A stretch of 64,000 nucleotides of DNA from Rhizobacter sp. SG703. GTDB lineage: Bacteria > Pseudomonadota > Gammaproteobacteria > Burkholderiales > Burkholderiaceae_C. The stretch's first letter is position 1. Each line of letters begins with the position of its first letter. The DNA is taken from contig NZ_JAAZQK010000003.1 in assembly GCF_012275445.1 (NCBI RefSeq), forward strand, positions 1-64,000, in the 5' to 3' direction. The notes beneath the pieces were generated by a model, which worked only from the letters and a program-made list of their open reading frames with translations, was not told the origin of the DNA and did no database searches. Below are positions 5,296 through 60,543 of this stretch, one piece after another. A program made the position numbers and the translations under genes.

Positions 5296-5299
<4 letters not shown>

Positions 5300-6222: not shown

Positions 6223-6264
6223 GGGGCGCAAGGAGCTCTCGTCAATTGTTTCGGGACACATTCG

Positions 6265-7464: not shown

Positions 7465-7640
7465 CGAATGGCGGGAAGAGGTCACGGCAGCATGAAGGGG
7501 AGGGGGCGCGCGGCACGCATGCAGCGGCGCAGACCCGGAGCCTATCAGGCTCGCGCCGCGGATTCGCCTGACCTCGGCCGGCTTGCTACGATGGCCCGTC
7601 GCGCCCACCCGCGCCGTCCCGACCCGCCGGAGATCCCCGC

Positions 7641-8048: not shown

Positions 8049-8052
8049 GTCG

Positions 8053-8973: not shown

Positions 8974-8987
8974 CCCGCATTCCAGGG

Positions 8988-9040
8988 GGCGCCGCCTCAC
9001 TCAGATGGGGGGTCGTCACCAGGGTGTCGCGGCGCCTTTT
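8988..9040 (+). terminator. Candidate terminator after the PA2778-type gene
   Basis: ggcgccgc (8988-8995) can pair with gcggcgcc (9029-9036), followed directly by tttt. The 33-nt loop is long for an intrinsic terminator, so support is modest. Its place between the peptidase gene and the biosynthetic operon fits a transcription boundary. Confidence 0.35.
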
Positions 9041-9067
9041 GACTTTACATTGCTTCACTGGAAAGAC
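9039..9067 (+). promoter_or_regulatory. Weak candidate promoter of the PKS-NRPS operon
   Basis: The 153-bp gap before the thioesterase gene is the only sizeable non-coding space upstream of the twelve-gene operon, so its promoter is expected here. A good -35 (ttgact, 9039-9044) is followed 17 bp later by a poor -10 (aaagac, 9062-9067). A purine-rich ggagg at 9070-9074 lies too far from the ATG at 9127 to act as its ribosome binding site. No recognisable activator site is seen. Confidence 0.25.
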
Positions 9068-9126
9068 ACGGAGGATCACAGGCCGCACTCGGGCGGGCTC
9101 GACCCCGTTGTCGACGGCGTCCTGCG

Positions 9127-9903
9127 ATGAGCGCAAATTCCTGGCTGCAACGCTTCACTCCCCGCACCGAGGCGCGAGCCCGGCTGTACTGCTTCCACCA
9201 TGCCGGTGTCGGCGCGGCCGTGTACCGGCCGTGGCTGGCCGGCCTGCCGGCCGAACTGGAGCTGGTCGCGGTGCAGCTGCCGGGCCGCGCGAACCGGCTC
9301 GACGAGCCGCCGATCGACCGCATGGCCGCGCTGGTCGACGCACTGCTGCCGGCGTTGCGCGCGGACTTCGACGGCAAGCCGTTCGCGTTCTTCGGCCACA
9401 GCATGGGCGCGGTGCTCGCCGCCGAAATGGCGCGTGCGTTGCAACAGCACGGCGCGCCGGGGCCGCAGCAGCTGATCGTGTCGGGCCGCCGCCCGCCGCA
9501 CTGGCCGTCGAGCGACGCCCCGCTGCACCGCCTGCCGGACGACGCCTTCGTCGCCGAGATCCAGCGCCGCTACGGCGGCATCCCGGCCGAGCTGCTGCAG
9601 CATGCCGACGTGATGGCGCTGCTGCTGCCCAGCCTGCGCGCCGACATCGCGGCACTCGAAACGCACCAGCCGCCGGCCGGCCGCGTGCCGCTCGACTGCG
9701 CGCTGTCGGTGTTCGGCGGCAGCGACGACCCGCTGACGCCGCGCGCCCACCTCGACGGCTGGCGCGGCGAGACGCGCGGCCCGTTCCGCGTGCGAGTGTT
9801 CCCCGGCGACCACTTCTACCTGGCCGGCCGGCGCGATGCGCTGCTGGCCGACCTGTCGGTCACGTTGGCGCCGCTCTGGGCAACGTCTCCTTCCTTCGCC
9901 TGA
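9127..9903 (+). CDS. Type II thioesterase of the PKS-NRPS cluster
   Basis: The product is 258 aa with an alpha/beta hydrolase fold. The nucleophile elbow is GHSMG with Ser92. The acid is Asp200 or Asp201 in GGSDDPLTP, and the base is His229 in GDHFYLAGR. The N-terminal RLYCFHHAGVGAAVYRPW segment is typical of external thioesterases such as GrsT/RifR. These remove misprimed or stalled acyl groups from carrier-protein phosphopantetheine arms. It is the first gene of the operon and ends 13 bp before the PKS A start. No strong Shine-Dalgarno precedes the ATG. Because no integrated TE exists, a role in product release cannot be excluded. Confidence 0.92.
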   Translation: MSANSWLQRFTPRTEARARLYCFHHAGVGAAVYRPWLAGLPAELELVAVQLPGRANRLDEPPIDRMAALVDALLPALRADFDGKPFAFFGHSMGAVLAAEMARALQQHGAPGPQQLIVSGRRPPHWPSSDAPLHRLPDDAFVAEIQRRYGGIPAELLQHADVMALLLPSLRADIAALETHQPPAGRVPLDCALSVFGGSDDPLTPRAHLDGWRGETRGPFRVRVFPGDHFYLAGRRDALLADLSVTLAPLWATSPSFA

Positions 9904-9916
9904 CCCCGAGGCCCCG

Positions 9917-15151
<5,235 letters not shown>

Positions 15152-15153
15152 CG

Positions 15154-26092
<10,939 letters not shown>

Positions 26093-26096
<4 letters not shown>

Positions 26097-29000
26097 GCAG
26101 TCCTGTCGCCGACACCACGCCGCTGACGCCGCTGCAGCGCGCCTTCCTGGCGCTGCAGCAGGCGCAGGCGAAGGTCGCCGCGCTCGAAGGCGCGGCGCGC
26201 GAGCCGATCGCGATCATCGGGCTGGGCTGCCGCGTGCCCGGCGGCGGCGTCGATGGCGACAGCTTCTGGCGATTGATGCGCGACGGCGTCGACGCGACCG
26301 GCCCGCTGCCGCGCGACCGCTGGGATGTCGATGCGCTGTACGATCCCGACCCCGAGGCGCCCGGCCGCATCGCGACGCGCGGCGGCGGCTTCCTCGGTCC
26401 GGTCGACGGCTTCGACCCGACCTTCTTCGGCATCACCCGCCGCGAAGCGCAGGGCATGGACCCGCAGCAGCGGCTGCTGCTGGAGGTGGCCTGGGAGGCG
26501 CTGGAGAACGCCGGCCAGGCGCCCGACCGGCTGGAGCGTTCGGCGACCGGCGTCTACGTCGGCGTCTGCGCCAACGACTATGCGCAGATGCAGCTGGAGA
26601 CGGGCGACCGCGGCTTGCTCGATGCGCACTTCGCGTCGGGCATCGCGCACAGCATCGCATCGGGCCGGCTGTCGTACCTGTTGGGGCTGCAGGGGCCGAG
26701 CGTCACGCTGGACACCGCCTGCTCGTCGTCGCTGGTCGCGCTGCACCTGGCCTGCCAGGCGCTGCGCTCGCGCGACTGCCGCATGGCGCTGGCCGGCGGC
26801 GTGAACCTGATCCTGTCGCCGGACCTGTACATCGCGTTGTCGCATTCGCGCATGCTGTCGCCGGACGGCAGATGCAGGACCTTCGATGCGGCGGCCGACG
26901 GCTTCGCGCGCGGCGAGGGCTGCGGCGTGGTGGTGCTGAAGCGGCTGGCCGATGCGCAAGCCGACGGCGATCGCATCCTCGCGGTGGTGCGCGGCAGCGC
27001 GGTCAACCAGGACGGCCCGAGCAGCGGGCTGACCGCGCCGAACGGCCCGGCGCAGCAAGCGGTGATCCGCGAGGCGCTGGCGCGCGCCGGCATCGCGCCG
27101 CACCAGGTGGGCTATGTCGAGGCGCACGGCACCGGCACGCAGCTCGGCGATCCGCTGGAGGTGCAGGCGCTCGGCGCGGTGTTCTCCGAAGGGCGCGCTG
27201 CGGCGCACCCGTTGCTGATCGGGTCGGTGAAGACCAACCTCGGCCACCTGGAAGCGGCGGCCGGCGTCACCGGCCTGATCAAGCTGGTGCTGTCGCTGCA
27301 GCGGCGGCAGGTCCCGGCGCACCTGCACTTCAAGACGCCGAGCCCGCACATCGCGTGGGGCGACCTGCCGTTGAAGGTGCCGACCGCGCTGATGCCCTGG
27401 GACGCGATCGACGGGCGGCGCATCGCGGGGGTCAGCTCGTTCGGGTTCAGCGGCACGAACGCGCATGTGGTGGTCGAGGAATGGAATGACGACCCCTCGA
27501 CCGACGGGTACGTCGGCCACTCCCCCGAGGGGAGGGCGGGCCGGCCTGGGAGCGGCCCGGCGCCCGGCCCGCAGGGCGCCGCGAACCACCATCTGTTCAT
27601 CCTCTCGGCCCGCGACGAAGCCGCGCTCGCCGACACCGCGCGCCGCTTCGCCACCGCGCTGGCCGGCCGCCCCGACCGCGAGCTGCCCGACCTCTGCTTC
27701 ACCGCCGCCGTCAGCCGCGCGGGCTTCGCGCAGCGCGCCACCGTGCTCGCGCGCTCGGTCGCCGAGCTGTGCGAGCGGCTGCTGGCGCTTGCCGACGGCC
27801 GCGAGGCCGACGGCGTGCAGACCGCCCGCGCGACCCGCCGCGACCCGGCGCGCATCGCCTTCCTGTTCACCGGGCAGGGCGCGCAATACGCCGGCATGGC
27901 GCGTGCGCTGTACGCGCAGCAGCCGGTGTTCCGCGCCGCGCTCGACGAGTGCGCACAGGCCCTCGCCGGCGTGCTGCCGCGGCCGCTGCTCGACGTGATG
28001 TTCGACGAGGTCGGCTCCGCCCTCGACGAGACCCGCTACACCCAGCCCGCGCTGTTCTCGCTCGAGATCGCCCTCGCGAAGCTGTGGGCCGCGTGGGGCA
28101 TCGCGCCCGATGTCGTGATCGGCCATTCGGTCGGGGAGTACGCCGCGGCCTGCGTGGCCGGCGTGATGACGCTGCCGCAGGCGCTGGCGCTGATCGCCGA
28201 GCGCGGCCGGCTGATGCAATCGCTGCCGGCCGGCGGCGCGATGGCGGCGGTCTTCGCGGCCGAGGCCGACGTGGCCGAAGCGGTCGCGCCGTTCGCCGCG
28301 CAGCTGTCGATCGCCGCCGTCAACGCACCGGACCAGACGGTGATCTCCGGCAGCGCGGCCGCGGTCGACGCGGTCTGCGAGCGCTTCAGCGTGCGCGGCG
28401 TGCGCTGCCAGAAACTGCCGGTCTCGCATGCCTTCCATTCGCCGCTGGTCGAGCCGGTGCTCGACGCGTTCGAGCAGGCCGCTGCCGCGACGACGCTGAG
28501 CCGCCCGCAGCTGCGCCTGGTGTCCAACCTGACCGGCCGGCTCGCCGATGCCGACGCGATCGTGCAACCTGCCTACTGGCGCCGCCATGTGCGCGAGGCG
28601 GTCCGCTTCGCCGACGGCCTGCGCACGCTGGCCGGGCTGAAGCCCGACCTCTGCATCGAGGTCGGCCCGCACCCGACGCTGCTGAACTTCGCGGAGGATC
28701 TGCCGGTGCGCGTGCCGACGCTGCGCAAGGGCCGCGCCGATGCCGACCAGCTGGCCGAATCGCTGGCCGCGCTGTACCGGGCCGGCGCGCCGCTCGACTG
28801 GCGCGCCGTCTGGTCGGCCAGCGGCGCCCGGCTCGCCGACCTGCCGCCGACCCCGTTCCGCCGCGAGCGCTGCTGGTTCCAGGCGCGCCCGCCGGTGGCC
28901 GCGCGCAGCGGCACGCCGACCGGCCACCCGCTGCTCGGCATGCGGCTGCGCTCGCCGTTGCGGGAGGTCGTGCAGTTCGAGACCACGCTGTGCAGCGACG

Positions 29001-32000
29001 ACCTGCCGTACCTGGCCGACCACCAGGTGCAGGGCCGCGTGATCCTGCCGGCCACCGGCTTCCTCGAAATGGCGCTGGCGGCGAGCCGCATCGTGTCCGG
29101 CGTGGCACGGGCGGTGGCCGATGTCGTGATCAGCGAGCCGCTGGTGTTCGCACCCGGCGAATCGCGCACCGTGCAGCTGCTGCTGCGTCGGGCAGCCGAC
29201 CTCCAGGCCGACAGCTTCGAGATCCTGTCGCTCGGTGCCGGCGAGCCCGACGACGCCTGGCGCATGCACGTGCAAGGCAGCTACACCGCGGTCGACGCGG
29301 CGCCGTCGCACGACGCGCCCGACGCGATCCGCGCCCGCTGCACCGGCGTGCTCGATGCCGCCGGCCACTACGCGCAGCTCGCCGCGCGCCAGCTCGCGTT
29401 CGGGCCGGCGCTGCAAGGCGTGCAGCAGATCGCGCGGCGCGACGGCGAAGCGCTCGGCGAGATTGCGCTGCCGGCCGCTGCCGGCCGTGCCGGCTACGTG
29501 ATGCACCCGGCGCTGCTCGACGCTGCGCTGCAGGTGATGGCGGCCGCGCTGCCGGCGCAGGCCGCGGCCGGCCGGGCCTACCTGCCGCTCGCGATCGGCC
29601 GGCTCGCGGTGCACCGTGAGCCGGGCGAGCGGCTGAGCAGCCATGTGCGCATCGCACCGGGCGGCAGCGGCGACACGCTGAAGGCCGACCTGGTGCTGTT
29701 CGACACGCATGGCACCGTCGCCACCTTGCATGGCATCGCGCTGCGCGCCGCCGCGGTGCCCGCCGCGAACGGGAACGGCGAGCCGGTCTACCGCATCGCG
29801 TGGGAACCGGTGCCAGGCGCCGGCTGGATGCCGACGCCGGCCGAGCTGGCCGCGCAGGCCGGGCCGCGGCTCGACGCGCTGTCGCGCGAGCACGACCTGG
29901 CCGACTACCAGGAAGCCTTCGTCGCACTCGAAGCGATGAGCGCGGCGTGGATCGCCCGCGCGCTCGGCGAGCTCGGCTGGTCGCCGGCGCCCGGCGAGCG
30001 CGTGCAGGCCGATGAGCTGGCGCGGCGGCTGAAGATCGCGCCGCGCTACCACCGCCTGCTGCCGCGGCTGCTCGCGATCCTGGCCGAGGACGGCTGGCTG
30101 CGCGCCGACGGCGGCGCCTTCACCGTGACGAACTGGCATCCGGTCTCCGATCCGGCCCAGCGCGTCGCGCCGCTGCTGCAATGCCACCCGGCCTCGCGCC
30201 CGCGCATCGCGCTGACCGCGAACTGCGGCGCGGTGCTCGGCGACATCCTGGCCGGCCGGGCCGATCCGCTGCACCAGCTGTTCCCGAACGGCTCGACCGA
30301 ACTGGCCGAGGCGCTGTACCGCGATGCACCCGAGGCCAAGGCCTACAACCAGCTGCTGCGCGAGACGGTGCGCGCCGCGCTGCAGCGGCTGCCGGCCGGG
30401 CAGCGGCTGCGCATCCTCGAAGTCGGCGGCGGCACCGGCGGCAGCACCGCGTGGGTCGCGCCGATGCTGCCGGCCGACCGCTGCGACTACCTGTTCACCG
30501 ACATCGGCCCGCTGATGGTGGCCCGCGCCCGCGAGCGCTTCGGGCTGCACCCGTTCATGCGCTTCCAGCCGCTGGACCTCGAAGGCTCGCTGGCGGCGCA
30601 GCTGGCCGGGCAGCACTTCGACATCGTCATCGCGGCCAACGTGATCCACGCGACCGCCGACCTCGGCCGCACGCTCGGCCAGGTCCGCCAGGTGCTCGCG
30701 CCGGGCGGCACGCTGCTGATGCTGGAAGTGGCCGGCATGGAGCGCTGGATCGACATCACCTTCGGGCTGACCGACGGCTGGTGGCGCTTCACCGACACCG
30801 CACTGCGGCCGGCGTACCCGCTGCTGTCGCGCGAGCGCTGGCTGGCGCTGCTCGGCGAGCTCGGCTTCGAGGCCGCGGCGATCGATGCGCCGCAGCCGAA
30901 TTCGCGCGAGGTGCTGCTGGCCGCGCGGCGGCCGGTGCAGGCGGTCGATGCGCTGCCGGCGTCGAGCTGGCTGCTGGTCGGCGACCGCGCCGGCGTCGGC
31001 GAGGCGCTGGCGGTGCAGATGCGCGCGGCCGGGCACGAGGTGCTGCTGGCCTCGGCCGGTGCCGACATGGCTTCGCTCGTGGCCGGCCGCAGCCTGCGCG
31101 GCATCGTGCACCTTGGCGCGCTCGAGCTGGCGATGCCCGATGCCGGCCGCGCGGAGTCGCTGGTCGACACGCAGCGCGCGAGCCTCGGCTCGCTGCTGGC
31201 ACTGGTGCAGGCGCTCGGCGCGCAGTCGTTCGCAGCCGGCACGACGCCGCGGCTGTGGATCGCGACCCGCGGCGCGCAGCCGGTGCGCGACGGCGAGGCG
31301 CCGAACCCGCTGCAGGCCCCGGTGTGGGGCTTCGCGAAGGTGGTCGCGCTGGAGCATCCGGAGCTGCGCACGACGCGCATCGACCTCGATGACGCGCACG
31401 ATGCAGCCGCCGCGCTGTGGCAGGCGATCTGTGCCGACGGCGACGAGCCGCAGCTCGCGCTGCGCGGCGGGCAGGCCTTCGTCGCGCGGCTGGTGCACGG
31501 CAGCGCCGCGCCGTCCGACCCGGCGCCGGTGCGGCTGGAGAAGGCCGCCAGCGGCGTGTTCGACGAGATGCCGCTGGTGCCGATGGCGCGCCGCGCGCCC
31601 GGCCCCGGCGAGGTCGAGATCCGCGTGCGCGCGGCCGGGCTGAACTTCCGCGACATCATGAATGCCGTCGCGCTGCGCGCCGACCCGGAACCGCTGGGCG
31701 GCGAATGCGCCGGCACCGTCGTCGCGCTCGGCGAGGGGGTGCAGGTTTTCGCGATCGGCGATGCGGTGGTCGCGACCGGCGAGGCCTGCTTCGCGAGCTA
31801 CATGACGACCGGCGCGCAGCACGTCGCGCCGCTGCCGCGCGGCATCGGGTATGCCGAAGGCGCGACGCTGCCGTTCGCGCTGATGACGGCCTGGCATGCG
31901 CTGCAGGTGCTGGGCGGCATCCGCGCCGGCATGACGGTGCTGGTGCATGCCGCGGCCGGCGGCGTCGGCATGGCGGCGGTGCAGATCGCGCAGCGTGCCG

Positions 32001-33721
32001 GTGCCACGGTGTTCGCGACCGCCGGCAGCGAGGCCAAGCGCGCGCTGCTGCGGGCGCAGGGCGTGGTGCAGGTGATGAACTCGCGCACGCTCGATTTCGA
32101 GGCCGAGGTCGCGCGGCTGACGGAGGGCCGAGGCGTCGACCTGGTGCTGAACTCGCTGGCCGGCGAATTCATCCCGGCCAGCGTGCGCAGCCTGTCGGCG
32201 CAGGGCCGCTTCCTCGAGATCGGCAAGCGCGACATCTGGAGCCCGTCGCAGTTCCGCGAGCTGCGCCCGCAGGCGCGCTACCACGCGATCGACCTGAACG
32301 CTCAGCGCTACCAGGACCCGGCGGCCGCGCAGGCGCTGTTCGCCGCCGTGATGGCTGCGGTGCAGCGCGGCGAGCTGAAGCCGCTGCCGCTGCATGCGTT
32401 CCCGCTGGAGCGCGGCGGCGAGGCCTTCCGCTTCATGGCGCAGGCGCGGCACACCGGCAAGGTGGTGCTGACGCAGCACGATGCGCTGCAGGCCTCGATG
32501 CAGGCGCTGACGCCGCGCGGCGTCTACCTGGTGACCGGCGGGCTGTCGGGGCTCGGGCTGCTGACGGCCGGCCGGCTGGTCGAGCGCGGCGCGCGCCACC
32601 TGGTGCTGGTGGGCCGGCGCGCGGCGTCGCCGGCGGCGCAGGCCACGCTCGATGCGATGCGCGCGCAGGGCGCGCAGGTGCAGGTGCTGCAGGCCGACAT
32701 GTCGCGCGCCGACGCGGTGGCGCGCGTGCTCGACGGCATCGCGCGGGGCGGGCTGCCGCTGCGCGGCGTGATCCATTCGGCCGGCGTGCTGGAAGACGGC
32801 GCGCTGCTGCAGCAGGACTGGTCGCGCTTCGTGCGGCCGCTCGGTCCGAAGCTCGACGGCAGCTGGGCGCTGCACGTGCTGACGCGCGGCGAGCCGCTGG
32901 ACTTCTTCGTGCTGTATTCGTCGATGGCGTCGGTGCTCGGGTCGTCCGGCCAGGCCAACCATGCGGCGGCGAACGCGTTCATGGATGCACTGGCCGCGCA
33001 CCGGCGCGCGCTCGGGCTGCCGGGGCTCAGCATCGGCTGGGGTGCGTGGAGCGAGGTCGGCGCGGCGGCGGACCGGCAGGTCGACCAGCGGGTGGCCGCG
33101 CGCGGCATCGACGTGATCACGCCGGCGCACGGGCTGGAGCTGCTGGAGAAGCTGATGCGTGCCGAGGCCCCGCATGCCGGCGTGTTCCCGGTGCGCTGGG
33201 AGCGTTTCCTGGCGAGCGGTGGCGTGCCGGGGCCGTTCGTCTCGCACCTGGTCGAGCACCTGCGCGGCGCGCTGAAGCCGGGCGCGAAGCCGGCCGCCGG
33301 TGCGAAGCCCGCAGTGGCCGCCGGTGCCGCGCTGATCGACGAGCTGAAGCAGGCCACGCCGCAGCGCCGGCGCGAGCGGCTGCTGGCCTTCGTCGCCGAG
33401 CATGTCGCGCGGGTGGTCGACGCGCCGAGCGCGCAGGCCATCGACCCGCGCCAGCCGCTCAATGAACTGGGCCTCGATTCGCTGATGGCGGTCGAACTGC
33501 GCAACCGGCTCGGCACCGGCCTCGGCCTGGCACGCAGCCTGCCGGCGACGCTGGTGTTCGACCACCCGACGCTGGAGGCGCTGGCGGCCTACCTCGAAGC
33601 GCTGGCGGTGCCGGCCGCGCCAGCGGCGGTGGCCAAGCCGGTCGACGCGGTCGGTACGCTCGACGAGATGAGCGACGAAGAAGTCGAAGCGATGTTCGCG
33701 AAGAAATTGAAGAGGCCCTGA
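26093..33721 (+). CDS. PKS D: KS-AT-DH-MT-ER-KR-ACP module
   Basis: The product is 2542 aa. The GTG start (26093) overlaps the PKS C stop and has a strong ggagggg upstream. A docking helix (about 8-35) precedes the KS (Cys210, His345, His385). The AT has Ser679 (GHSVG) and HAFH (malonyl). The DH has His977 in [11 protein letters not shown] and Asp1143 in DAALQ. The C-methyltransferase has LEVGGGTGG from 1442 and the His1519/Glu1545 dyad. The ER (about 1812-2130) has AAGGVGMA near 1953. The KR has its nucleotide motif from 2145, but the catalytic Tyr position is His2290 (QANHAAAN); Asn2294 is kept. The ACP has Ser2463. The C-terminal helix contains [11 protein letters not shown]. It carries every possible tailoring domain, so a saturated alpha-methyl unit is expected. 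An in-frame GC-rich insertion sits in the KS-AT linker. Confidence 0.94.
27487..27585 (+). repeat. In-frame GC-rich repeat-like insertion in the KS-AT linker of PKS D
   Basis: About 100 bases encode a Gly/Pro/Arg-rich stretch ([20 protein letters not shown]) absent from the sister modules. It contains the small palindrome ctccccCGAggggag and a second GC-rich inverted segment. It resembles the ccccgagggg-type intergenic repeats common in Burkholderiales, but I cannot confirm a second genomic copy from this window. Confidence 0.45.
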
Positions 33722-45968
<12,247 letters not shown>

Positions 45969-45972
<4 letters not shown>

Positions 45973-46967
45973 AGTCCGCAGGCCGGATGCCCATCCGGGA
46001 TCTCCGCCAGCGCCCACCCGAATTGGCATCCGGGCTGCGGTTCGCGTTCGCCTTCGCCGTCTTGTGGGCGCTGCTGGAATTGATCGCGTCGCGCCTGCAA
46101 GGCGGCTACGACGTGCTGCAGATCGAGGGCTGCCGCTTCGCGGTGCAGCTCGCGTCGATGCTCGCGGTGCAGCGCTGGCGCCGCGATGCACCGCCGTGGC
46201 GCACCGGCCGGCCGCTGGCGCAGGGCGTGCGCGCGCTGCTGATGCTCGCGATCCCGCTGTCGTTCGGCGTCGCGGTGCTGCAGGGCGCGTCGCCGCACCT
46301 CGCGATGACCGGCCTGTGGGTCGCGCCGGTGTTCGCGCTGCTGCTGGCGCGCGGCTGGCTGCGGTCGAAGGCGCCGCTGCTGCCGTGGATCGCCGCCGCG
46401 GCCGGGCTGTGCGCGACGGTCGCGATGCTCGAGCCGGCGCGGCCGCCGACGCTGCAGGCCTCGGTCGTGCCCCTGCTGATGGGGCTGGCCTTCGCCGGCT
46501 ACCTCGCGTTGACGCGCTCGCTGCGCCACGAGCCGGCGATGACCAACCTGTTCTGGGTCGGCCTCGGCGGGCTGGTCGGCGTGCTGCCCTTCCTGCCCGG
46601 CGTGTGGGTGACGCCCACGCTGCACGACGCGCTGGTGTTCGCCGCGCTCGGCGTCGTCGGCTTCGCCGCGCTGTGGCTGCTGGAGCAGGCGCTGCGCCGC
46701 GCGCCGCTGCCGTGGATCGCGCCCGCGCTGTACGTGCACGTCGCCTGCCTGACGATGGTGTCGCTGGCGGTGCGCGGGCACCTGCCGTCGCTGCGCATCG
46801 CGCTCGGGCTGCTGATGGTCGGGGGCATCGCGCTCGCGCTGTGGCGCGCCGCGGTCGCGCGCGACCTGCCGGCGCAGCAGGCTTCGACAAGCGCGCCGAT
46901 CGGCGCCCCGATGCGGCTGGAATCGGCGACCGGCCCGGTGCCGCTGGACGACGAGACGAGGCCGTGA
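45969..46967 (+). CDS. EamA/DMT-family transporter, first of a pair
   Basis: The product is 332 aa. The GTG start overlaps the PKS F stop (GTGA). A polar N terminus of about 25 residues is followed by about ten predicted membrane helices in two five-helix halves, as in EamA/RhaT-type drug/metabolite transporters. The charged C-terminal tail (about 300-332) is longer than usual. Its place between the last PKS and the NRPS, within an overlapping gene series, suggests export of the product or supply of a precursor. The substrate cannot be told from sequence. It resembles the next gene (shared LQGGYDVLQIEG / LQLHYSLMQVVW pattern), suggesting a duplication or a heterodimer. Confidence 0.85.
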
Positions 46968-46969
46968 CG

Positions 46970-47884
46970 ATGGACGTCGCGCCGCTGCACCCCGTGGCCT
47001 CGCTCGCGCAGCGCGCGCCGGGCCGCGGCGCGATGCTGCTGCTGGCGCTGTTCGCGCTCGCCTGGGCGGTCGTCGAAGGCGTGTTCGGTGCGCGGCTGCA
47101 GTTGCACTACTCGCTGATGCAGGTGGTGTGGTGCCGCTATGCGGTGCACCTGGCCTGCCTGGGGCTGCTCGTCGGCTGGCGCGCGCCGTCGCGGCTGTGG
47201 CGCACGCGGCGCCTCGGCTTCCAGCTGTCGCGCTCGCTGCTGATGCTGGTGATGCCGGCCAGCTTCGCGCTGTCGCTCGCGGCCGGCGACCGGCCCGGCA
47301 CGGTGTGGGCGCTGTTCTGGGTGGCGCCGCTGATGATCCTCGGCTTCGCGCGGCTCGCGCTGGGCGAGCGTGTGCCGCGCTGGGTGTGGGCGGTGGCGGC
47401 GATCGGCAGCGGCGTGGCCGCGGTGATGGCCGAGCCGGCGCTGCCTCGGTCGCTGGCCGGCGCGGTGCTGCCGATCGTGATGGCGCTGTCGTTCAGCATC
47501 TACGTCGTGATGACGCGCGCGCTGCGCGACGAGCCGGTGCAGGCCAACCTGTTCTTCACCGCGCTCGGCGTGTTCGCGCTGCTGACGCCGCTGATGCCCT
47601 TCGTCTGGGTGATGCCCAACCTGCACGATGCGGCGCTGCTGGCCGGCATCGGCATCGTCGGGCTGCTGGCGCTGTGGGCGCTGGACCGGGCCTGCGAACG
47701 CGCGCCGGTCGCGCAGGTGGCGCCGACGCTGCATGTGCACCTGCTGTGCATGGCGCTGGTGGAGTGGGGCGCCGCCGGCGAGGCGTTCACGCACCGCGAC
47801 CTGCTCGGCGCGGCGTGGATCGGGCTCGCGCTGCTGGCGCTGTGGTTGTGGCAATCGGCTCTGGAAAGGACCCCTGCGACGTGA
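46970..47884 (+). CDS. EamA/DMT-family transporter, second of a pair
   Basis: The product is 304 aa from the ATG at 46970, two bases past the previous stop. An in-frame GTG at 46964 overlapping that stop is equally possible. About ten hydrophobic helices are visible (ALFALAWAVVEGVFGARLQL, LFWVAPLMILGFARLALGE, FTALGVFALLTPLMPFVWV). It is a paralogue of the preceding transporter. Its stop overlaps the NRPS GTG start. The two may work as a heterodimer, as some DMT proteins do. Export of the lipopeptide is an inference from context only. Confidence 0.85.
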   Translation: MDVAPLHPVASLAQRAPGRGAMLLLALFALAWAVVEGVFGARLQLHYSLMQVVWCRYAVHLACLGLLVGWRAPSRLWRTRRLGFQLSRSLLMLVMPASFALSLAAGDRPGTVWALFWVAPLMILGFARLALGERVPRWVWAVAAIGSGVAAVMAEPALPRSLAGAVLPIVMALSFSIYVVMTRALRDEPVQANLFFTALGVFALLTPLMPFVWVMPNLHDAALLAGIGIVGLLALWALDRACERAPVAQVAPTLHVHLLCMALVEWGAAGEAFTHRDLLGAAWIGLALLALWLWQSALERTPAT

Positions 47885-50800
47885 CTCAAGTGACTCCGGT
47901 GACCGACCTGCTGTCCGCGCTGGCCGCGCAAGGGGTGCTGCTGTGGTTCGAGGGCAGCCGGCTGCGCTTCCGGGCGCCGCAGGGTGCGCTGTCGGCCGAG
48001 CAGCGCGCGCAGATCGGCGCGCGCCGCGACGAGGTGCTGGCCGCGCTGCGCGCGCAAGCGGCGCAGCAGCAGCGCATCGCGCCGCTGTCGCACCCGCAGC
48101 AGGCGCTGTGGTTCGTGCACCAGGAGCAGCCCGACAGCGCGGCCTACAACGTGGTGTTCGCGCTGCGCGTGCTGTCGCCGGTCGACGAGGCCGCGCTGCG
48201 CCAGGCGCTGCAGGCGCTGGTCGACCGGCATGCGGTGCTGCGCACCACCTACGACATGATCGACGGCCTGCCGCGCCAGCGCATCGCCGGTACCGGCGTG
48301 GCGGTGCTCGACGTGCATGACGTCGCAGGGCTGGGCGACGCCGCGCTGCGCCAGCGCCTCGACGCCGACGCCCGCCGCCCGTTCGACCTGGTGCACGGCC
48401 CGGTGATGCGCAGCGTGCTGTACCGCCGCGCGGCCGCCGACCAGGTGCTGCTGCTCGCGATGCACCACATCGCGATCGACGGCTGGTCGCTGCTGATGCT
48501 GCTGGAAGAGTTCCGCGCGCTGCTGATCGAAGCCAGCGGCGGCGCACCGGCCGGGCTGCCGCGCGTCGAGCTGCAGTACGCCGACTACACCGGCTGGCAG
48601 GCCACGATGCTGGCCGGCCCGCAGGGCGAGCAACTCGCCGCGTACTGGACGCGCCAGCTCGCCGCGCCGCGCGCCGAGATCGAGCTGCCGCCCGATCGCC
48701 CGCGGCCGCCGCGGCGCAGCGGGCAGGGCGCCACGTTCGACTTTCATGTCGACGCGGCCACCACCGCACGGCTGAACCAGCTGGCGCGCGACGAGGGCAT
48801 GACGCTGTACGTGCTGCTGCTGGCGGCGTTCAAGGCGCTGCTGTTCCGCCACACCGGTTGTGAAGACGTGATCGTCGGCACACCGACCTTCGGCCGCACG
48901 CAGCCGGAGTTCGCACGCGTGATCGGCGACTTCGTGAACCCGGTGGCGCTGCGCTCGCGCGTGCATGCCGGGCTGCCGTTCCGCGCGCTGATGCAGCAGG
49001 TGCGCGGCACGCTGCTGGAGGCGCTGGACGCGCAGGAGTACCCGCTGTCGCTGCTGGTCGAGCGCCTGCAGCCGGTGCGCGATGCGAGCCGCTCGCCGCT
49101 GTTCGAGACCATGTTCGTGCTGCAGCGCTTCGAGCAGTTCCGCGAGCTGAACGACCTGCTGGTCGCCGGCGCGAGCGACGTGCCGGTCGACTTCGCCGGC
49201 TGGCGCGTGCTGCCGTATGCGATGGCGCAGCAGGAAGGCCAGTTCGACCTCGGGCTCGGCCTGATCGACCGCAGCGATGCGCTGTCGGGCGCGTTCAAGT
49301 ACAACCCGTCGCTGTACGACCGCGCGACGATCGAAAGGCTGTGGGCGCACTACCGCGTGCTGCTCGACGGCATCGTCGCCGACCCGGCGATGCCCATCGG
49401 CCGGCTGCCGCTGCTCGACGCGGCCGAGCGTGCGGCGGTGCTGCCGCCGGTGGCCGCGGTCGCCGCCGACGTGCGGCCCATTCACCATCGTTTCGAAGCC
49501 CATGCCGCGCGCACGCCCGACGCGACCGCGCTGCGCTGCGACGGCACTTCGATGTCGTACGGCGAGCTGAACCGCCGCGCGAACCAGGTGGCGCACCGGC
49601 TGCAGGCGCTCGGCGTGGTGCCGGGCACGCGCGTCGGGCTGTGCGCCGAGCGCTCGATGGCGCTGGTGGTCGGGCTGCTCGCCATCGTGAAGGCCGGCGG
49701 CGCCTACCTGCCGGTCGACCTGTCGTACCCGGCCGAGCGGGTCGCGTTCATGCTCGGCGATGCGCAGGCGTCGGTGATGCTGACGCAGACGGCGCTGCTC
49801 GCGCAGTTGCCGCAGCACGCCGGCACGACGCTGTGCCTCGACGACCCGTCGCTCGCCGACGCGCCGGCCGGCAATCCGGCGAGCCCGGTCGGCGCCGACG
49901 ACTTGGTCTACGTGATCTACACCTCCGGTTCCACCGGCCAGCCGAAGGGCACGCTGCTGACGCACCGCGCGGTCGACCGGCTGTTCAGCGCGACCGCCGG
50001 CTGGTTCCACTTCGGTCCGCAGGATGTGTGGACGCTGTTCCATTCGGTGGCCTTCGATTTCTCGGTGTGGGAGCTGTGGGGCGCGCTGGCGCACGGCGGC
50101 TGCCTGGTGGTCGTGCCGCAGGCGGTGAGCCGCTCGTCGGAGGCCTTCCTGCAGCTGCTGCACGACGAGCGCGTCACGGTGCTGAACCAGACGCCGTCGG
50201 CGTTCCGGCAACTGGTGCAGGCCGATGTCGACAGTGGCGCGCCGCGGCGCACCGCACTGCGCGAGGTGGTGTTCGGCGGCGAGGCGCTGGAGCTGCAGGC
50301 GCTGCGCCCGTGGTTCGAACGCCATGGCGATGCGCAGCCGCGGCTTGTCAACATGTACGGCATCACCGAGACCTGCGTGCACGTGACGTACCGGCCGATC
50401 GTGCGGGCCGATGTCGACGCGCGCGCCGGCAGCGTGATCGGCGTGCCGATCCCCGACCTGCGGGTGCGGCTGCTCGATGCGCTGATGCAGCCGGTGCCGG
50501 TCGGCGTGACCGGCGAGATGCATGTCGGCGGGCCGGGCCTCGCGCTCGGCTACCTGAACCGGGCGGAGTTGACGGCCGAGCGTTTCGTCGACGATCCGTT
50601 CCACCCCGGCGCGCGGCTGTACCGCAGCGGTGACCTCGCGCGCTGGCGCGTGCGGCCTGCCGACGGTTCGCTGGAGCTGGAGTACCTCGGCCGCATCGAC
50701 CACCAGGTGAAGATCCGCGGCTTCCGCATCGAGCTCGGCGAGATCGAGGCATTGCTCGCGCAGCAGCCCGGCGTGCGCGAGAGTGCGGTGCTGGCGCGCG

Positions 50801-53800
50801 AGGACGTGCCGGGCGACCAGCGGCTCGTCGCGTACGTCGCCGGCACCGCCGAGGTCGACGCGCTGAAGCAGGCGCTGCGCGAACGGCTGCCCGACTACAT
50901 GGTGCCGGCCGCGTTCGTCGCGCTGCCGACGCTGCCGCTGACCGGCAACGGCAAGGTCGACCGGAAGGCGCTGCCGGCGCCGGCGGGGCTGGCCGCGACG
51001 GCCGCGCGGTGCGTCGAGCCGCCGCAGGGTGGGATCGAGCCGGGCCTCGCGGCGATCTGGCGCGACGTGCTCGGGCTGGGCGATGCCGGGATCGGCCGTC
51101 ACGACAACTTCTTCGAACTGGGCGGGCACTCGCTGCTCGCGACGCAGGTCACCGCACGCATCCGGCAGGCCTTCGACCGCGGCTTCGTGCTGCGCACGGT
51201 GTTCGAACGGCCGGTGCTGCACGAGCTGGCGCAGGCGATCGAGGCGGGCCGCGCGCCCATGGCGGCGAGCGGGGCGATCCCGCGGCTTGCTGGCGACGGC
51301 CCGTCGCCGTTGTCGTTCGCGCAGGAGCGCATGTGGCTGCTGCACGAGCTGGCACCGGAGAGTTCGGCCTACAACATGCCGGTCGCGCTGCGGCTGCACG
51401 GCGCGCTCGACCGCGCCGCGCTGGAGCGGGCGCTCGATGCGCTGGTGCAGCGCCACGAGACGCTGCGCACGACGTTCGCGATGGTCGACGGCCGCCCGCT
51501 GCAGACGGTGCAGCCGCACCGGCCGGTCGCGCTGCCGTTCCACGACCTGCGCCCGCAAGGCCGGCAGGCCGAGGAGGCCGCGATCGCACTGGCGACCGAC
51601 ACCGCGCGCGCCTACTTCGACCTGGTGCACGGGCCGGTCTTCCGCACGCTGCTGGTCCAGGTGGCCGACGACGAGCACCTGCTGCTGCTCGCGATGCACC
51701 ACATCGCCGGCGACCAGTGGTCGTACGGCGTGCTGGGCCGCGAGTTGGCCGAGGCCTATGCGGCATTCCGCCGCGGTGCGGCACCGGCCTGGCCGCCGCT
51801 GGCGCTGCAGTACCGCGACGTCGCGGTGTGGCAGCGCGAGCGCTTCCGGGGCGAGCTGCTGGAGGCGCAGCTCGGCTACTGGCGCCGCCAGCTCGACGGC
51901 GTCGCGCCGCTGCTGCTGCCGACCGACCACCCGCGGCCGACCATCCTGTCGGACCGCGCCGCGTGGCATGCCGACGTGCTGCCGCCGGCGCTGATCGCGT
52001 CGCTCGAGGCCTTCAGCCGCGCGCACGGCTGCACGTTGTTCATGACGCTGTTCGCCGCGTACGTGACGCTGCTGCACCGCTACAGCGGGCAGGCCGACAT
52101 CGCGGTCGCGGTGCCGATCGCCAACCGCGAACAGCGCGAGGTCGAAGGGCTGGTCGGCGGCTTCATCAACACGCTGGTGATGCGCAGCACCTGCCGCGAC
52201 GAGCTGCCGTTCGCCGAGCTGCTGGCGAACGTGCGCACGACCGCGCTGGAGGCGTATGCGCACCAGGAGCTGCCGTTCGCGAAGCTGGTCGAGGAGCTGC
52301 GGCCGCTGCGCGGCCCGGCGCTGCCGCCGCTCGCGCAGGTGCTGTTCACGCTGCAGAACGCGCCGATGAGCGGCATCGAGTTCCCGGGGTTGCAGTGGGA
52401 GCCGGTCGCGATCGACCGCGCTGCGGCACCGTTCGAGCTCGGGCTGTACATCGAGGCGGCCGTCAGCGGCAGCGTGCTGTTCGAGTACTCGACCGAGCTG
52501 TACGACGAGCCGACGATCCGCCGCATGGCGGGGCACTACCGCACGCTGCTCGAATCGCTGGTGGCGGCGCCGGCCGTGTCGCCGGCCACCGCGCTCGCGA
52601 AGCTGCCGATGCTCACCGCCGACGAGCGGCGCTGGCTGCTGGTCGAGATGAACGGCACCGCCGCCGCGCATGCCAACGACGTGTACCCGCGCCTGTTCGA
52701 GGCGCAGGTCGCGCGCAGCCCCGCGGCCGAAGCGGTGCGCTACGAGGGTGCGTCGCTCACCTATGCCGCGCTGAACGCCCGCGCGAACCGCGTGGCGAAC
52801 CGGCTGCGCGCGATGGGCGTCGGCCCGGGCAGCCTGGTCGGCGTGTGCCTGCAGCGTTCGCTCGCGCTGGTGGTGGCGCTGCTCGGCGTGCAGAAGGCGG
52901 GTGGGGCCTACGTGCCGCTGGACCCGGGCTTCCCGGCCGAGCGGCTCGCCTACATGCTGGAAGACAGCGGCGCGACGGTGCTGGTGGCCGGCGGCGACGC
53001 GGCCGACGGCATCGCGCTGCCGCCCGGCGTGCAACTGTTGGACGTGCTGGCCGACGCCGTCGCGCTGGGCGCGGGCAGCGAGGACAACCTCGCGAGCACG
53101 CCGGCGCCCGGCGACCCGGCCTACGTGATCTACACCTCCGGCTCCACCGGTCGGCCGAAGGGCGTGGTGGTGCCGCACGGCGCGCTCGCGAACTTCCTGC
53201 ATTCGATGCGGCGCGAGCCGGGGTTGCAGGCCGGCGACGTGCTGGCTGCCGTGACGACCGTCTCGTTCGACATCGCCGGGCTGGAGCTGTACCTGCCCTG
53301 GCTGGTCGGCGCGCGGGTCGAACTGCTGCCGCGCGAAACGGCGGCCGATGGCGTCGCGCTGGCGGCGGCGCTGGCGGCCAGTGGCACGACGGTGCTGCAG
53401 GCGACGCCGGCCACCTGGCGACTGCTGCTCGAAGCCGGCTGGACCGGCGGGCCGGGCTTCCGCGCGCTGTGCGGCGGCGAGGGGCTGCCGCGCGAGTTGG
53501 CCGATGCATTGCTGGCGCGTGTCGGCGAACTGTGGAACCTGTACGGGCCGACCGAGACGACGATCTGGTCGACCGCCGAGCGCGTGATCGGCGGCGGTGC
53601 ACCGGTCACCATCGGCCGGCCGATCGACAACACGCAGGTGCATGTGCTGAGCCGGGCCGGCGAGCTGCAGCCGGCCGGCATCCCCGGCGAGCTGTGGATC
53701 GGCGGCGCGGGCGTGGCGACCGGCTACCACCGGCGGCCGGAGCTGACGGCCGACCGCTTCATCGCCGACCGGTTTTCGGCCCAGCCGGGCGCGCGGCTGT

Positions 53801-54453
53801 ACCGCACCGGCGACCTCGGCCGCTGGACCGCGCAGGGCCGGCTGGAGCACCTCGGCCGCATCGACCACCAGGTGAAGATCCGCGGCTTCCGCATCGAGTT
53901 GGGCGAGATCGAGTCGGTGCTGGCGGGGCACGGGGCGGTGCGGCAGTCGGTGGTGATCGCGCGCGAGGCGGGGCCGGGCGACCTGCGGCTGGTGGCCTAC
54001 GTCGTCTACCAGCCCGGCGAGGACCTGACCGTCAGCGAGGTGCGGCGCCACCTGCGGCGCGAGCTGCCGGACTACATGGTGCCGTCGCTGGTGGTCGCGC
54101 TCGACGCGATCCCGCTGACGCCGAACGGCAAGGTCGACCGCAGTGCGCTGCCCGACCCGTTCAAGAACGTCGCGCCGGTGGCGGCCTACGAGCCGCCGGC
54201 GCCGGGCCTGGAGCGCTTGCTGGCCGATGTGTGGCAGCAGACGCTGCAGATCGAGCGGGTGGGCGCCGAGGACAACTTCTTCGAGCTGGGCGGGCATTCG
54301 CTGCTGTCGCTGCGCGTGGCGGTGGCGGTGGAGCAGCGCACCGGCTGGCGCATGGATCCGCGCGTGCTGTTCTTCCAGACCCTTCGCCAGGTCGCGGCTG
54401 CGGGCGCCGCGCATGTTTCCACGGACCTTTCGGACCCCTTGCCCAGCCCATGA
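47881..54453 (+). CDS. Bimodular NRPS TubC_N-C-A(Thr)-PCP-C-A(Gly)-PCP
   Basis: The product is 2190 aa with a GTG start overlapping the transporter stop. Residues 1-60 resemble the TubC-type N-terminal docking domain (VTDLLSALAAQGVLLWFEGS). C1 (about 65-510) has HHIAIDG at 195-201. A1 (about 536-1030) has pocket residues D726-F-W-N-V-G-M-V-H-K, nearly the threonine code DFWNIGMVHK. PCP1 has Ser1084 in LGGHSL. C2 has HHIAGDQ with His1274/Asp1278. A2 (about 1604-2085) has D1797-I-L-Q-L-G-L-I-W-K, the glycine code. PCP2 has Ser2140. No epimerase, methyltransferase, reductase or TE domain follows; the protein ends about 50 residues after PCP2. It should extend the PKS F acyl chain with Thr then Gly. 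Confidence 0.94.
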   Translation: MTQVTPVTDLLSALAAQGVLLWFEGSRLRFRAPQGALSAEQRAQIGARRDEVLAALRAQAAQQQRIAPLSHPQQALWFVHQEQPDSAAYNVVFALRVLSPVDEAALRQALQALVDRHAVLRTTYDMIDGLPRQRIAGTGVAVLDVHDVAGLGDAALRQRLDADARRPFDLVHGPVMRSVLYRRAAADQVLLLAMHHIAIDGWSLLMLLEEFRALLIEASGGAPAGLPRVELQYADYTGWQATMLAGPQGEQLAAYWTRQLAAPRAEIELPPDRPRPPRRSGQGATFDFHVDAATTARLNQLARDEGMTLYVLLLAAFKALLFRHTGCEDVIVGTPTFGRTQPEFARVIGDFVNPVALRSRVHAGLPFRALMQQVRGTLLEALDAQEYPLSLLVERLQPVRDASRSPLFETMFVLQRFEQFRELNDLLVAGASDVPVDFAGWRVLPYAMAQQEGQFDLGLGLIDRSDALSGAFKYNPSLYDRATIERLWAHYRVLLDGIVADPAMPIGRLPLLDAAERAAVLPPVAAVAADVRPIHHRFEAHAARTPDATALRCDGTSMSYGELNRRANQVAHRLQALGVVPGTRVGLCAERSMALVVGLLAIVKAGGAYLPVDLSYPAERVAFMLGDAQASVMLTQTALLAQLPQHAGTTLCLDDPSLADAPAGNPASPVGADDLVYVIYTSGSTGQPKGTLLTHRAVDRLFSATAGWFHFGPQDVWTLFHSVAFDFSVWELWGALAHGGCLVVVPQAVSRSSEAFLQLLHDERVTVLNQTPSAFRQLVQADVDSGAPRRTALREVVFGGEALELQALRPWFERHGDAQPRLVNMYGITETCVHVTYRPIVRADVDARAGSVIGVPIPDLRVRLLDALMQPVPVGVTGEMHVGGPGLALGYLNRAELTAERFVDDPFHPGARLYRSGDLARWRVRPADGSLELEYLGRIDHQVKIRGFRIELGEIEALLAQQPGVRESAVLAREDVPGDQRLVAYVAGTAEVDALKQALRERLPDYMVPAAFVALPTLPLTGNGKVDRKALPAPAGLAATAARCVEPPQGGIEPGLAAIWRDVLGLGDAGIGRHDNFFELGGHSLLATQVTARIRQAFDRGFVLRTVFERPVLHELAQAIEAGRAPMAASGAIPRLAGDGPSPLSFAQERMWLLHELAPESSAYNMPVALRLHGALDRAALERALDALVQRHETLRTTFAMVDGRPLQTVQPHRPVALPFHDLRPQGRQAEEAAIALATDTARAYFDLVHGPVFRTLLVQVADDEHLLLLAMHHIAGDQWSYGVLGRELAEAYAAFRRGAAPAWPPLALQYRDVAVWQRERFRGELLEAQLGYWRRQLDGVAPLLLPTDHPRPTILSDRAAWHADVLPPALIASLEAFSRAHGCTLFMTLFAAYVTLLHRYSGQADIAVAVPIANREQREVEGLVGGFINTLVMRSTCRDELPFAELLANVRTTALEAYAHQELPFAKLVEELRPLRGPALPPLAQVLFTLQNAPMSGIEFPGLQWEPVAIDRAAAPFELGLYIEAAVSGSVLFEYSTELYDEPTIRRMAGHYRTLLESLVAAPAVSPATALAKLPMLTADERRWLLVEMNGTAAAHANDVYPRLFEAQVARSPAAEAVRYEGASLTYAALNARANRVANRLRAMGVGPGSLVGVCLQRSLALVVALLGVQKAGGAYVPLDPGFPAERLAYMLEDSGATVLVAGGDAADGIALPPGVQLLDVLADAVALGAGSEDNLASTPAPGDPAYVIYTSGSTGRPKGVVVPHGALANFLHSMRREPGLQAGDVLAAVTTVSFDIAGLELYLPWLVGARVELLPRETAADGVALAAALAASGTTVLQATPATWRLLLEAGWTGGPGFRALCGGEGLPRELADALLARVGELWNLYGPTETTIWSTAERVIGGGAPVTIGRPIDNTQVHVLSRAGELQPAGIPGELWIGGAGVATGYHRRPELTADRFIADRFSAQPGARLYRTGDLGRWTAQGRLEHLGRIDHQVKIRGFRIELGEIESVLAGHGAVRQSVVIAREAGPGDLRLVAYVVYQPGEDLTVSEVRRHLRRELPDYMVPSLVVALDAIPLTPNGKVDRSALPDPFKNVAPVAAYEPPAPGLERLLADVWQQTLQIERVGAEDNFFELGGHSLLSLRVAVAVEQRTGWRMDPRVLFFQTLRQVAAAGAAHVSTDLSDPLPSP

Positions 54454-55175
54454 ACCCATTCTTCTTCGGCACGCGGCAACGGCGGCTGTTCGGCGTGTAC
54501 AGCCCGGCGCGGGCATCGGCTTCGGGCAGCGGCACGCGCGCCGTGCTGCTGTGCGCGCCGTGGGGCCAGGAGTACCTGCGTGCCCACCGCGCGATCAAGC
54601 AATTGGCGACCTTGCTGAACCAGTCCGGCGTGCACGTGCTGCGCTTCGACTGGTTCGGCACCGGCGATTCGGCGGGAGAGATGCTCGATGCGAGCCTCGC
54701 CGGCTGGCAGGGCGACATCGAGACAGCGATCGACGAGCTGAAGGACACGACGGATGCAGCGCGCGTCGGGCTGGTCGGGTTGCGGCTGGGCGGTACGCTG
54801 GCGGCGAGCGTCGCGGCACGGCGGCGCAAAGACGTCGATAGCCTGGTGCTGTGGGACCCGGTGGTGTCGGGCGAGGCGTATGTGAAGGAGCTGCTGGCCG
54901 ACGCGCCGGCCCGCAAGGCCGAGCACGGCGGCGGGCACGAGGTGATGGGCTTCGCACTGGGCGAGGCAATGGCGGCGGAGCTGCGCGGCCTCGTGCTGCC
55001 GCACGCGGAACTGCCGGCGCGCACGCTGGTGGTTCGCTCGGTGCCGGGCGAGGCCGTCGGTGCGGTGCCGACCGAGCAGGTCGAGGGCCAGCCCGCATGG
55101 CTGGAGGATCACCACTCGGGGGCCGGCGCGGTGCCGGTGAAGGTGTTGCAGCGCATCGCGCAATGGTGGAGCTGA
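54450..55175 (+). CDS. Alpha/beta hydrolase-like protein with Arg at the nucleophile position
   Basis: The product is 241 aa; its start overlaps the NRPS stop as ATGA. It has an alpha/beta hydrolase fold, with FDWFGTGDS near residue 68 and a nucleophile-elbow region reading GLRLGG, so Arg112 stands where Ser is expected. From memory, this resembles the exosortase A system-associated hydrolase 2 group, which also lacks the classical Ser. It may be a non-catalytic partner of the next hydrolase, or use a different residue. Its position right after a TE-less NRPS suggests a role in release or processing of the product. Confidence 0.8.
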   Translation: MNPFFFGTRQRRLFGVYSPARASASGSGTRAVLLCAPWGQEYLRAHRAIKQLATLLNQSGVHVLRFDWFGTGDSAGEMLDASLAGWQGDIETAIDELKDTTDAARVGLVGLRLGGTLAASVAARRRKDVDSLVLWDPVVSGEAYVKELLADAPARKAEHGGGHEVMGFALGEAMAAELRGLVLPHAELPARTLVVRSVPGEAVGAVPTEQVEGQPAWLEDHHSGAGAVPVKVLQRIAQWWS

Positions 55176-56038
55176 TGGTGAACGAACAGGTGCTGCTGAT
55201 GGGCCCGCGCAAGGCGCTGGTGGGCATCGTGACGCCGGCGGCGGACGGCGCCGCGGCGTCGCCGGACCGGCCGGCGGTGGTGGTGCTGAACTCCGGGATC
55301 ATCCACCGCGTCGGCGCGAACCGGATGACGGTGCAGCTGTGCCGGCAGCTGTCGCAGCAGGGCGTCGACGCGGTGCGCTTCGACCTCTCGGGCATCGGCG
55401 ACAGCGAGCCGCGCGACGACGGGCTGGGGCTGCTGGAGGCGAGCCTGACCGACATCAAGGAGGCGCTGGACACGCTGGAATCGGCACGCGGTTTCAAGCG
55501 CTTCGTGCTGGTCGGGCTGTGCTCGGGCGCGGACCATGCGGTGGTCTACGCGGGGCGCGATGCACGGGTGACCGGGCTGGTGCTGCTGGACCCGTCGATC
55601 CCGCACACGCCGCGCTACTACCTGAACCACTACGCGCGGCGCGCGACGCGGCTGAGCAGCTGGATGAACATCGCGCGGGGGAAGCATCCGCTGTGGCAGG
55701 CGCTGGGGCAGCGGATGGGTGGCGGTGCGCATGGCGCAGAGCCGGCCGAGGTGGACCCGCGGGCCGACCTCGATACGCCGCAGGCGAAGGCGTTCCTGAC
55801 CCAGGCGTACGCCGCCGCGCAGGCGTCAGGCAACCGCTTCCTGGTGGTGCTGACGGCCGAGCGCGAGGACCAGCACAACTACCGCGAGCAGCTGCTGGAT
55901 GCGTTTCCCGATGTGTCGTTCGGAGACCGGCTGCAGCTGGAGTACTGGGAGGACACGGACCACACGTTCACGCCGGAAGCGAGTCGGGAGCGGGTGATCG
56001 GGCGGATTGCGCAATGGGTGCCGGCGGGAGCCGATTGA
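55175..56038 (+). CDS. Alpha/beta hydrolase with Cys nucleophile, putative chain-release enzyme
   Basis: The product is 287 aa. The ATG at 55175 overlaps the previous stop (TGATG) and has ggtggag upstream; an in-frame ATG at 55163 is possible. The fold is alpha/beta hydrolase: FDLSGIGDSE near residue 70, then the elbow GLCSG (114-118) with Cys116 as nucleophile, and a likely catalytic His263 in DTDHTF. From memory it is closest to the exosortase-associated hydrolase 1 group. The only standalone candidates for product release in this operon are this protein, its neighbour and the first-gene thioesterase. A fragment of its 3' end is repeated at 57265-57328. Confidence 0.82.
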   Translation: MVNEQVLLMGPRKALVGIVTPAADGAAASPDRPAVVVLNSGIIHRVGANRMTVQLCRQLSQQGVDAVRFDLSGIGDSEPRDDGLGLLEASLTDIKEALDTLESARGFKRFVLVGLCSGADHAVVYAGRDARVTGLVLLDPSIPHTPRYYLNHYARRATRLSSWMNIARGKHPLWQALGQRMGGGAHGAEPAEVDPRADLDTPQAKAFLTQAYAAAQASGNRFLVVLTAEREDQHNYREQLLDAFPDVSFGDRLQLEYWEDTDHTFTPEASRERVIGRIAQWVPAGAD

Positions 56039-56176
56039 ACCCGGGGCCGGGCTGATGGACCGGCTTGCCAGACGTACCTTCGCAGGAGTGATCGGACACT
56101 GCGGGTGACAAAGCCGGTTGCGAGAGTCGCTTGCATTGAGCGGTTCATTCGCAGCTGTCGCGTTGGGAATCGCTGT

Positions 56177-56209
56177 ATTTGGTCATCAGCGTCCCAATGG
56201 ATTTGGTCA
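56177..56209 (+). repeat. Direct repeat upstream of the low-GC gene
   Basis: atttggtca occurs at 56177-56185 and again at 56201-56209, 24 bp apart and ending 16 bp before the putative ATG at 56226. It could be a regulator binding site, or chance in an AT-richer stretch. Confidence 0.3.
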
Positions 56210-56225
56210 ATGTGGAATACGCAGT

Positions 56226-57814: not shown

Positions 57815-58669
<855 letters not shown>

Positions 58670-60492: not shown

Positions 60493-60543
60493 GCGCGGGG
60501 TCGGGCAGTGAGGGTGGCGCAGTCTAAACGCCCGACGGCCCCA

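Follow-up and report, generated by a model that had tools for sequence, protein, structure and literature searches.

A predicted colinear PKS-NRPS operon in Rhizobacter sp. SG703 and a candidate two-protein, Cys-dependent release unit

Positions 9127-56038 of the window, the 64,000-nucleotide stretch of DNA that was analysed at the start of contig 3 of Rhizobacter sp. SG703 (genome 6.5 Mb), carry six single-module cis-AT PKS genes, two EamA transporter genes, a two-module NRPS gene and three alpha/beta-hydrolase genes, all on the + strand. Adjacent genes overlap or abut, and we therefore read the cluster as one putative operon, composed as follows.

9127..9903, + strand: type II thioesterase with the motif GHSMG (Ser); Pfam Thioesterase, 4.3e-50
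9836..15151, + strand: PKS module 1, KS-AT-DH-KR-ACP, AT motif VASH, start at 9836 or 9917; domain and motif reading
15154..21687, + strand: PKS module 2, KS-AT-DH-ER-KR-ACP; domain and motif reading
21684..26096, + strand: PKS module 3, KS-AT-cMT-ACP, no reduction, AT motif HAAH; domain and motif reading
26093..33721, + strand: PKS module 4, KS-AT-DH-cMT-ER-KR-ACP, KR Tyr replaced by His; domain and motif reading
33722..39499, + strand: PKS module 5, KS-AT-cMT-KR-ACP, KR Tyr replaced by His; domain and motif reading
39496..45972, + strand: PKS module 6, KS-AT-DH-ER-KR-ACP, altered DH motif; domain and motif reading
45969..46967, + strand: EamA-type transporter 1; Pfam EamA
46961..47884, + strand: EamA-type transporter 2, start not fixed; Pfam EamA
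47881..54453, + strand: NRPS, TubC_N-C-A(Thr)-PCP-C-A(Gly)-PCP, no thioesterase; Pfam domains and alignment codes
54450..55175, + strand: hydrolase partner 1 (TIGR03101-like), elbow GLRLG with Arg and no Ser/Cys; NCBIfam and alignment
55175..56038, + strand: hydrolase partner 2 (TIGR03100-like), elbow GLCSG with Cys, and a DHTF His; NCBIfam and alignment

A first-pass annotation of this DNA had described six single-module PKS proteins followed by a Thr-Gly NRPS, which the domains and adenylation codes bear out, and its module-by-module domain series agrees with our Pfam reading. The type II thioesterase (9127), the EamA pair (45969-47884) and the hydrolase pair (54450-56038) were absent from its text. 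All six PKS modules have their own KS, AT and ACP by Pfam, and the Cys/His/His motifs of the KS domains (DTACSS, EAHGTGT and K.N.GH) are intact in all six. In the NRPS, the C motifs read HHIAIDG (C1) and HHIAGDQ (C2), and the A and PCP motifs are intact. The specificity codes, taken from the alignment with the final K assumed, are DFWNVGMVH(K) for A1 and DILQLGLIW(K) for A2, which we take to be Thr and Gly codes, respectively, in keeping with the earlier Thr-Gly assignment. No dedicated loading module was found, and the first PKS protein starts with a KS that keeps its active Cys. At the other end, no cis release domain (TE, R or Dieckmann) was detected in the NRPS by Pfam, and 12 residues follow the last PCP. 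Neither a loading module nor a cis release domain is universal among cis-AT modular PKS-NRPS hybrids. The line itself specifies neither starter nor release, which counts against the exact scaffold drawn in the first pass.

The exact scaffold proposed there, from a plain cis-AT PKS-NRPS with three C-methyl groups, every domain active and a linear acid as the product, agrees with the domain series and with the intact KS domains, but several motifs count against it, as do the missing starter module and TE. The AT1 sequence VASHSPQ aligns to YASHSPQ of EryA module 3, presumably a methylmalonyl-type motif. Among solved structures, the closest to AT1 is EryA, with a match to MAS as well, and AT3 and AT4 are nearest to CurL, a kind of comparison that is only suggestive of AT specificity. 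The AT1 motif VASH recurs in 13 of the 14 clusters read (the window and 13 relatives, described below), and module 1 may therefore add a methyl group through its extender. The other AT motifs in the window are YAFH (AT2), HAAH (AT3) and HAFH (AT4-6). Since the AT3 position, HAAH in the window, reads YASH in four of the 14 clusters, a gem-dimethyl is possible at module 3, which has its own cMT and may thus make one or two methyls. In addition, His replaces the Tyr of MAS and EryA in both KR4 and KR5 (the MAS/EryA search was run with KR4), and DH6 has Asp for Gly in HxxxG. The KR4 His is retained in 12 of the 13 clusters with a readable motif, which argues that it is tolerated; even so, the His of KR4/KR5 and the Asp of DH6 may lead to less reduction than drawn. 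We consider the exact scaffold improbable. If the line is colinear, every domain is active and the extenders are chosen as the motifs suggest, the expected core is starter-CH=C(R)-CH2CH2-CO-C(CH3)(R')-CH2-CH(CH3)-CH(OH)-CH(CH3)-CH2CH2-CO-Thr-Gly, where R would be CH3 if AT1 loads methylmalonyl and R' would be H or CH3.

The same line is present in Root1238 and OV335, giving three of 11 genomes of the genus Rhizobacter in all. The A1 code is identical across the three, and the A2 code differs by one residue in OV335. A GTDB genome scan with module 3 identified 386 places that encode a relative, of which the best 80 were kept (73 loci), and most of these kept loci were ordinary PKS modules at 44-50% identity. 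The genomes behind 19 loci were searched, together with two sister genomes that are twins of two of them, and 13 clusters taken from those 19 genomes were read with HMMs built from the window. They come from two Rhizobacter, three Hydrogenophaga, Rhodocyclales, Rhodopila, one Pseudomonadota, Burkholderiales 71_12, Rubrivivax, Methylonatrum, Polyangiaceae and an Acidobacteria MAG, with the Methylonatrum cluster more distant. By HMM reading, 12 of the 13 relatives have in common a head of KR(+/-DH), full, cMT-only and full + cMT modules; the exceptions seen with the HMMs were Rhodopila (no cMT in module 4), Rubrivivax (no DH in module 4), 71_12 (an extra module) and Polyangiaceae (a changed gene order). 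In a KS tree of 95 rows, the KS1 domains of 13 clusters fall together (100/99), as do the KS2 and KS3 domains of 12 clusters each (100/96 and 98/95, respectively); the KS4 domains of 13 clusters also group, at 92/94, which is under the star of the tree tool and open inside. KS5 and KS6 lie in two lineages, and the Rhizobacter ones go with those of two Hydrogenophaga. Module 5 of the window is without a DH, whereas the three Hydrogenophaga relatives have one there.

The cluster had been called an orphan, no characterised pathway being known to combine this domain series with Thr-Gly. The literature searched, with most subscription journals outside it, names no product and no characterised cluster of the same order, and in that sense the term stands; as a description of the line it does not, because the window is one member of a family spread over several bacterial groups.

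Behind the head, the tails vary. In nine relatives, a KS-AT-KR-PCP protein follows the first one or two NRPS modules, and the KS domains of these proteins form a clade of nine rows (100/100). The A domains before this protein are Gly-type, and so are those after it where present, except for DIVQIGQIW in Polyangiaceae. The three Rhizobacter clusters are without the KS-AT-KR module and carry a Thr module there, and only they read Thr-Gly among the 14 clusters. The window's Gly A domain falls into one clade with the terminal A domains of six relatives from other genera (nine rows, 99/99); its Thr A domain lies outside that clade on its own long branch. C1 of the window groups with the first C domains of the C-C-A proteins of Rhodopila and Polyangiaceae and with the first C of Methylonatrum (quick tree, SH-aLRT 99). 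We read this pattern as recombination of the tail on a conserved head (modules 1-4). In Rubrivivax and in Burkholderiales 71_12, the assembly line ends with the KS-AT-KR-PCP protein, and behind it come a methyltransferase and a protein with DinB_2 and FGE-sulfatase domains (EgtB-like), at L123 12409-14719 and L157 8177-10331.

A recombined tail on an old head could also belong to a line that is decaying or silent in Rhizobacter, with the product no longer made. The Rhizobacter tail does differ from those of all 11 relatives read outside the genus, and only three of the 11 genus genomes hold the line, but all frames are open, the catalytic motifs are kept and the two proteins compared show 90-95% identity to their counterparts in both sister Rhizobacter genomes. 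We regard decay as very improbable.

We then considered the hydrolase pair behind the NRPS. Partner 2 scores 103.3 bits against TIGR03100 (cut-off 168.45) and partner 1 scores 109.2 bits against TIGR03101 (cut-off 202.75), both below the cut-off. The pair was aligned across the family relatives, a 17-locus set, eight loci over the TIGR03100 cut-off and 20 loci of a class-wide survey, leaving out segments of <50 bits. In this alignment, in which some rows are near copies and the rows are not independent, the elbow of partner 1 has Arg in 51 of 54 rows and Gly in three, and the elbow of partner 2 has Cys in all 54; the DHTF His of partner 2 is present in 49 of the 49 rows with letters there, the other five being gaps. 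Partner 1 is fused behind A-PCP in seven loci, at the place where a TE would sit, and eight loci have the partners joined in a single protein. An AlphaFold2 single-sequence model of partner 2 had a mean pLDDT of 40 and was discarded as unusable. Just past the main cluster of Hydrogenophaga borbori, a second, divergent NRPS locus lies on the other strand (L096 4169-15000) and has its own hydrolase pair, with the partner 1 elbow GMGLG.

In 10 of the 14 family clusters, the pair directly follows the last module and no TE is present. The Acidobacteria and Polyangiaceae clusters carry a cis TE, the DNA read from them containing no pair, and the Rubrivivax and Burkholderiales 71_12 clusters have neither. 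With a TE profile built on three sequences, no TE was found in any of the 25 lines that end beside a pair (the 10 family clusters, the second borbori line, four of the 17-locus set and ten from the survey); a separate tally gave 23 such lines, since it counts some inner proteins and a duplicate and misses widely overlapping frames. Conversely, none of 13 TE-ending proteins carries partner 1, and a pair lies downstream of none of the 11 with DNA in view (the locus ended for the other two, L031 and L063). All these loci entered the analysis because a pair or an NRPS/PKS match was found in them, and the counts therefore do not reflect random sampling.

The pair is also found in other settings. 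A class-wide search was positive in 43 of 369 genomes at 1e-20, and of the 46 matches in genomes other than the window's own, the survey read 20, mostly top-ranking ones: ten lie beside a PCP-ended line and ten away from one, three of the latter with an A-domain-like ORF near. The 17-locus set comprises four loci beside a line, seven fused pairs, three pairs for which no line was found and three weak single matches only. None of six further loci (L219, L220, L221, L222, L223 and L224) has a PCP-ended line by these HMMs; a C/A-domain ORF, in which no PCP was found, adjoins the pair in L223, and in L220 the pair neighbours polysaccharide export genes and porin genes. Searched for across the phylum at a strict threshold, close relatives of partner 2 turned up in three of 299 genomes, the window's own included, and are therefore not common.

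We also compared the pair with the terminal residue of the line. The terminal A domain is Gly-type in all ten family clusters with the pair and in L140, L146, L192, L193, L194, L195, L198 and L201, against a small background of two Gly-type among 14 A domains from 70 other loci. In L149 the terminal code is DIAQWGVVW; a C-PCP forms the end of L152 and of the second borbori line. Stricter rules did not hold. The rule that a TE-less, Gly-terminal line implies the pair failed in both cases, L209 and L210, which have no pair downstream (they may be inner proteins of longer lines). These two, together with the Acidobacteria cis-TE line, which also ends in Gly, contradict the rule that Gly-terminal lines always carry the pair. 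Lastly, the pair does not always follow Gly, since the terminal A domain is not Gly-type in L191, L196, L197 and L199. A further line, L214, stops at a PCP and has no TE and no pair.

A fused copy of the hydrolases lies in the window's own genome (L139, G000:C7:158001-178000, 11626-19147), where its co-directed neighbours are an amino acid-[ACP] ligase, an acyl-CoA dehydrogenase, a DUF1839 protein and a glycosyl hydrolase 2-like protein; several of these neighbours have homologues in most other fused loci. The L139 ligase scores 442.8 bits (cut-off 357). A ligase homologue is present in six of the eight fused loci, and the carrier protein family NF005480 is present in all three loci tested. 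Amino acid-[ACP] ligase operons rely on a stand-alone ligase to charge the carrier. By guilt by association, we propose that what the settings of the pair have in common is a carrier protein bearing an aminoacyl or acyl group.

An alternative is that the pair serves proofreading, like a type II TE, or tailoring, and that cyclisation, spontaneous or driven by a nucleophile, frees the product, for example by attack of the Thr or a chain hydroxyl on the glycyl thioester. The pairs away from assembly lines speak for it, as do the two family clusters with neither pair nor TE and the TE-less L209, L210 and L214 without a pair. However, a Ser type II TE is already in the operon, and proofreading therefore need not be the job of the pair. 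The fusions of partner 1 to PCP C-termini and the separation of pair and TE, which occur together in none of the lines read, also point away from this alternative, and we consider it unlikely, although less so than decay of the line or the exact scaffold.

Taken together, we favor, at a probability of roughly 55%, reading the locus as a colinear cis-AT PKS-NRPS operon with two-protein, Cys-dependent release and export by EamA proteins. An acyl starter would be taken directly by KS1, and six extensions would build a methyl-branched chain, to be joined to Thr and then to Gly. The two-protein unit would release the product from the last PCP: partner 2, with its Cys and His, would attack the glycyl thioester, and partner 1, with its Arg elbow and no nucleophile, would dock on the PCP or shape the active site. 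The EamA proteins would then export the product. More broadly, and at slightly less than even odds, the Arg pseudo-hydrolase and the Cys hydrolase may together make up a split release unit that works on aminoacyl-, often glycyl-, carrier thioesters and replaces the TE in many proteobacterial NRPS and PKS-NRPS lines; the same chemistry would point to a role for the exosortase-named hydrolases as well as for the fused form in ligase operons.

Compared with cis-AT PKS-NRPS hybrids of the curacin/epothilone kind, the window is alike in module logic, cMT domains and TubC-type docking but differs in having no loading module, no cis TE and a Thr-Gly end. The exosortase A-named hydrolases TIGR03100 and TIGR03101 likewise form a tandem pair, and in the eight loci over the TIGR03100 cut-off (a set defined by score, not by an exosortase gene, with the elbows read here from the sequences) hydrolase 1 has a Cys elbow and hydrolase 2 an Arg elbow, as in the window. 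The window proteins differ from that pair in scoring below the cut-offs and in sitting behind an NRPS. Amino acid-[ACP] ligase operons (NF005479) hold the fused form of the same two hydrolases, with an NF005480 carrier in the three loci tested, and no PKS or NRPS was found at the ligase loci with fused hydrolases. The assembly line itself is thus of a known kind, and the proposed release arrangement is what would be new; the pair is not named as a release unit in the literature searched, which leaves out most subscription journals.

If the pair is a release unit, the exit of such lines escapes genome-mining rules that seek only TE, R or C-terminal C domains, and a hydrolase pair filed by NCBIfam only as a hypothetical equivalog becomes testable. 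The family spans Burkholderiales to Polyangiaceae and an Acidobacteria MAG and has no product in the literature searched, so that one isolation would explain many genomes. Its constant head and swapped tails provide natural examples of module exchange for assembly-line design.

Finally, we inspected the surroundings of the cluster. The cluster is separated from panC by about 1.8 kb (56039-57814), part of a 4-kb block with a lower GC content (0.64). The three ORFs tested there had no Pfam match, and in the 11 genus genomes the only long match to this stretch was the stretch itself. In genus genomes that lack the full line, the flanks (5299-9126 and 57815-61500) lie at a great distance from each other, for example at 0.16 and 4.83 Mb in G001, and the site therefore looks like a rearrangement junction, judging from the genome comparison. 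A simple insertion into a conserved site was unsupported, as the flanks are distant and no plain empty site was found in the genus genomes. The same genome also has a second large NRPS at G000:C1:287881-294564, in an open frame of 6652 aa.
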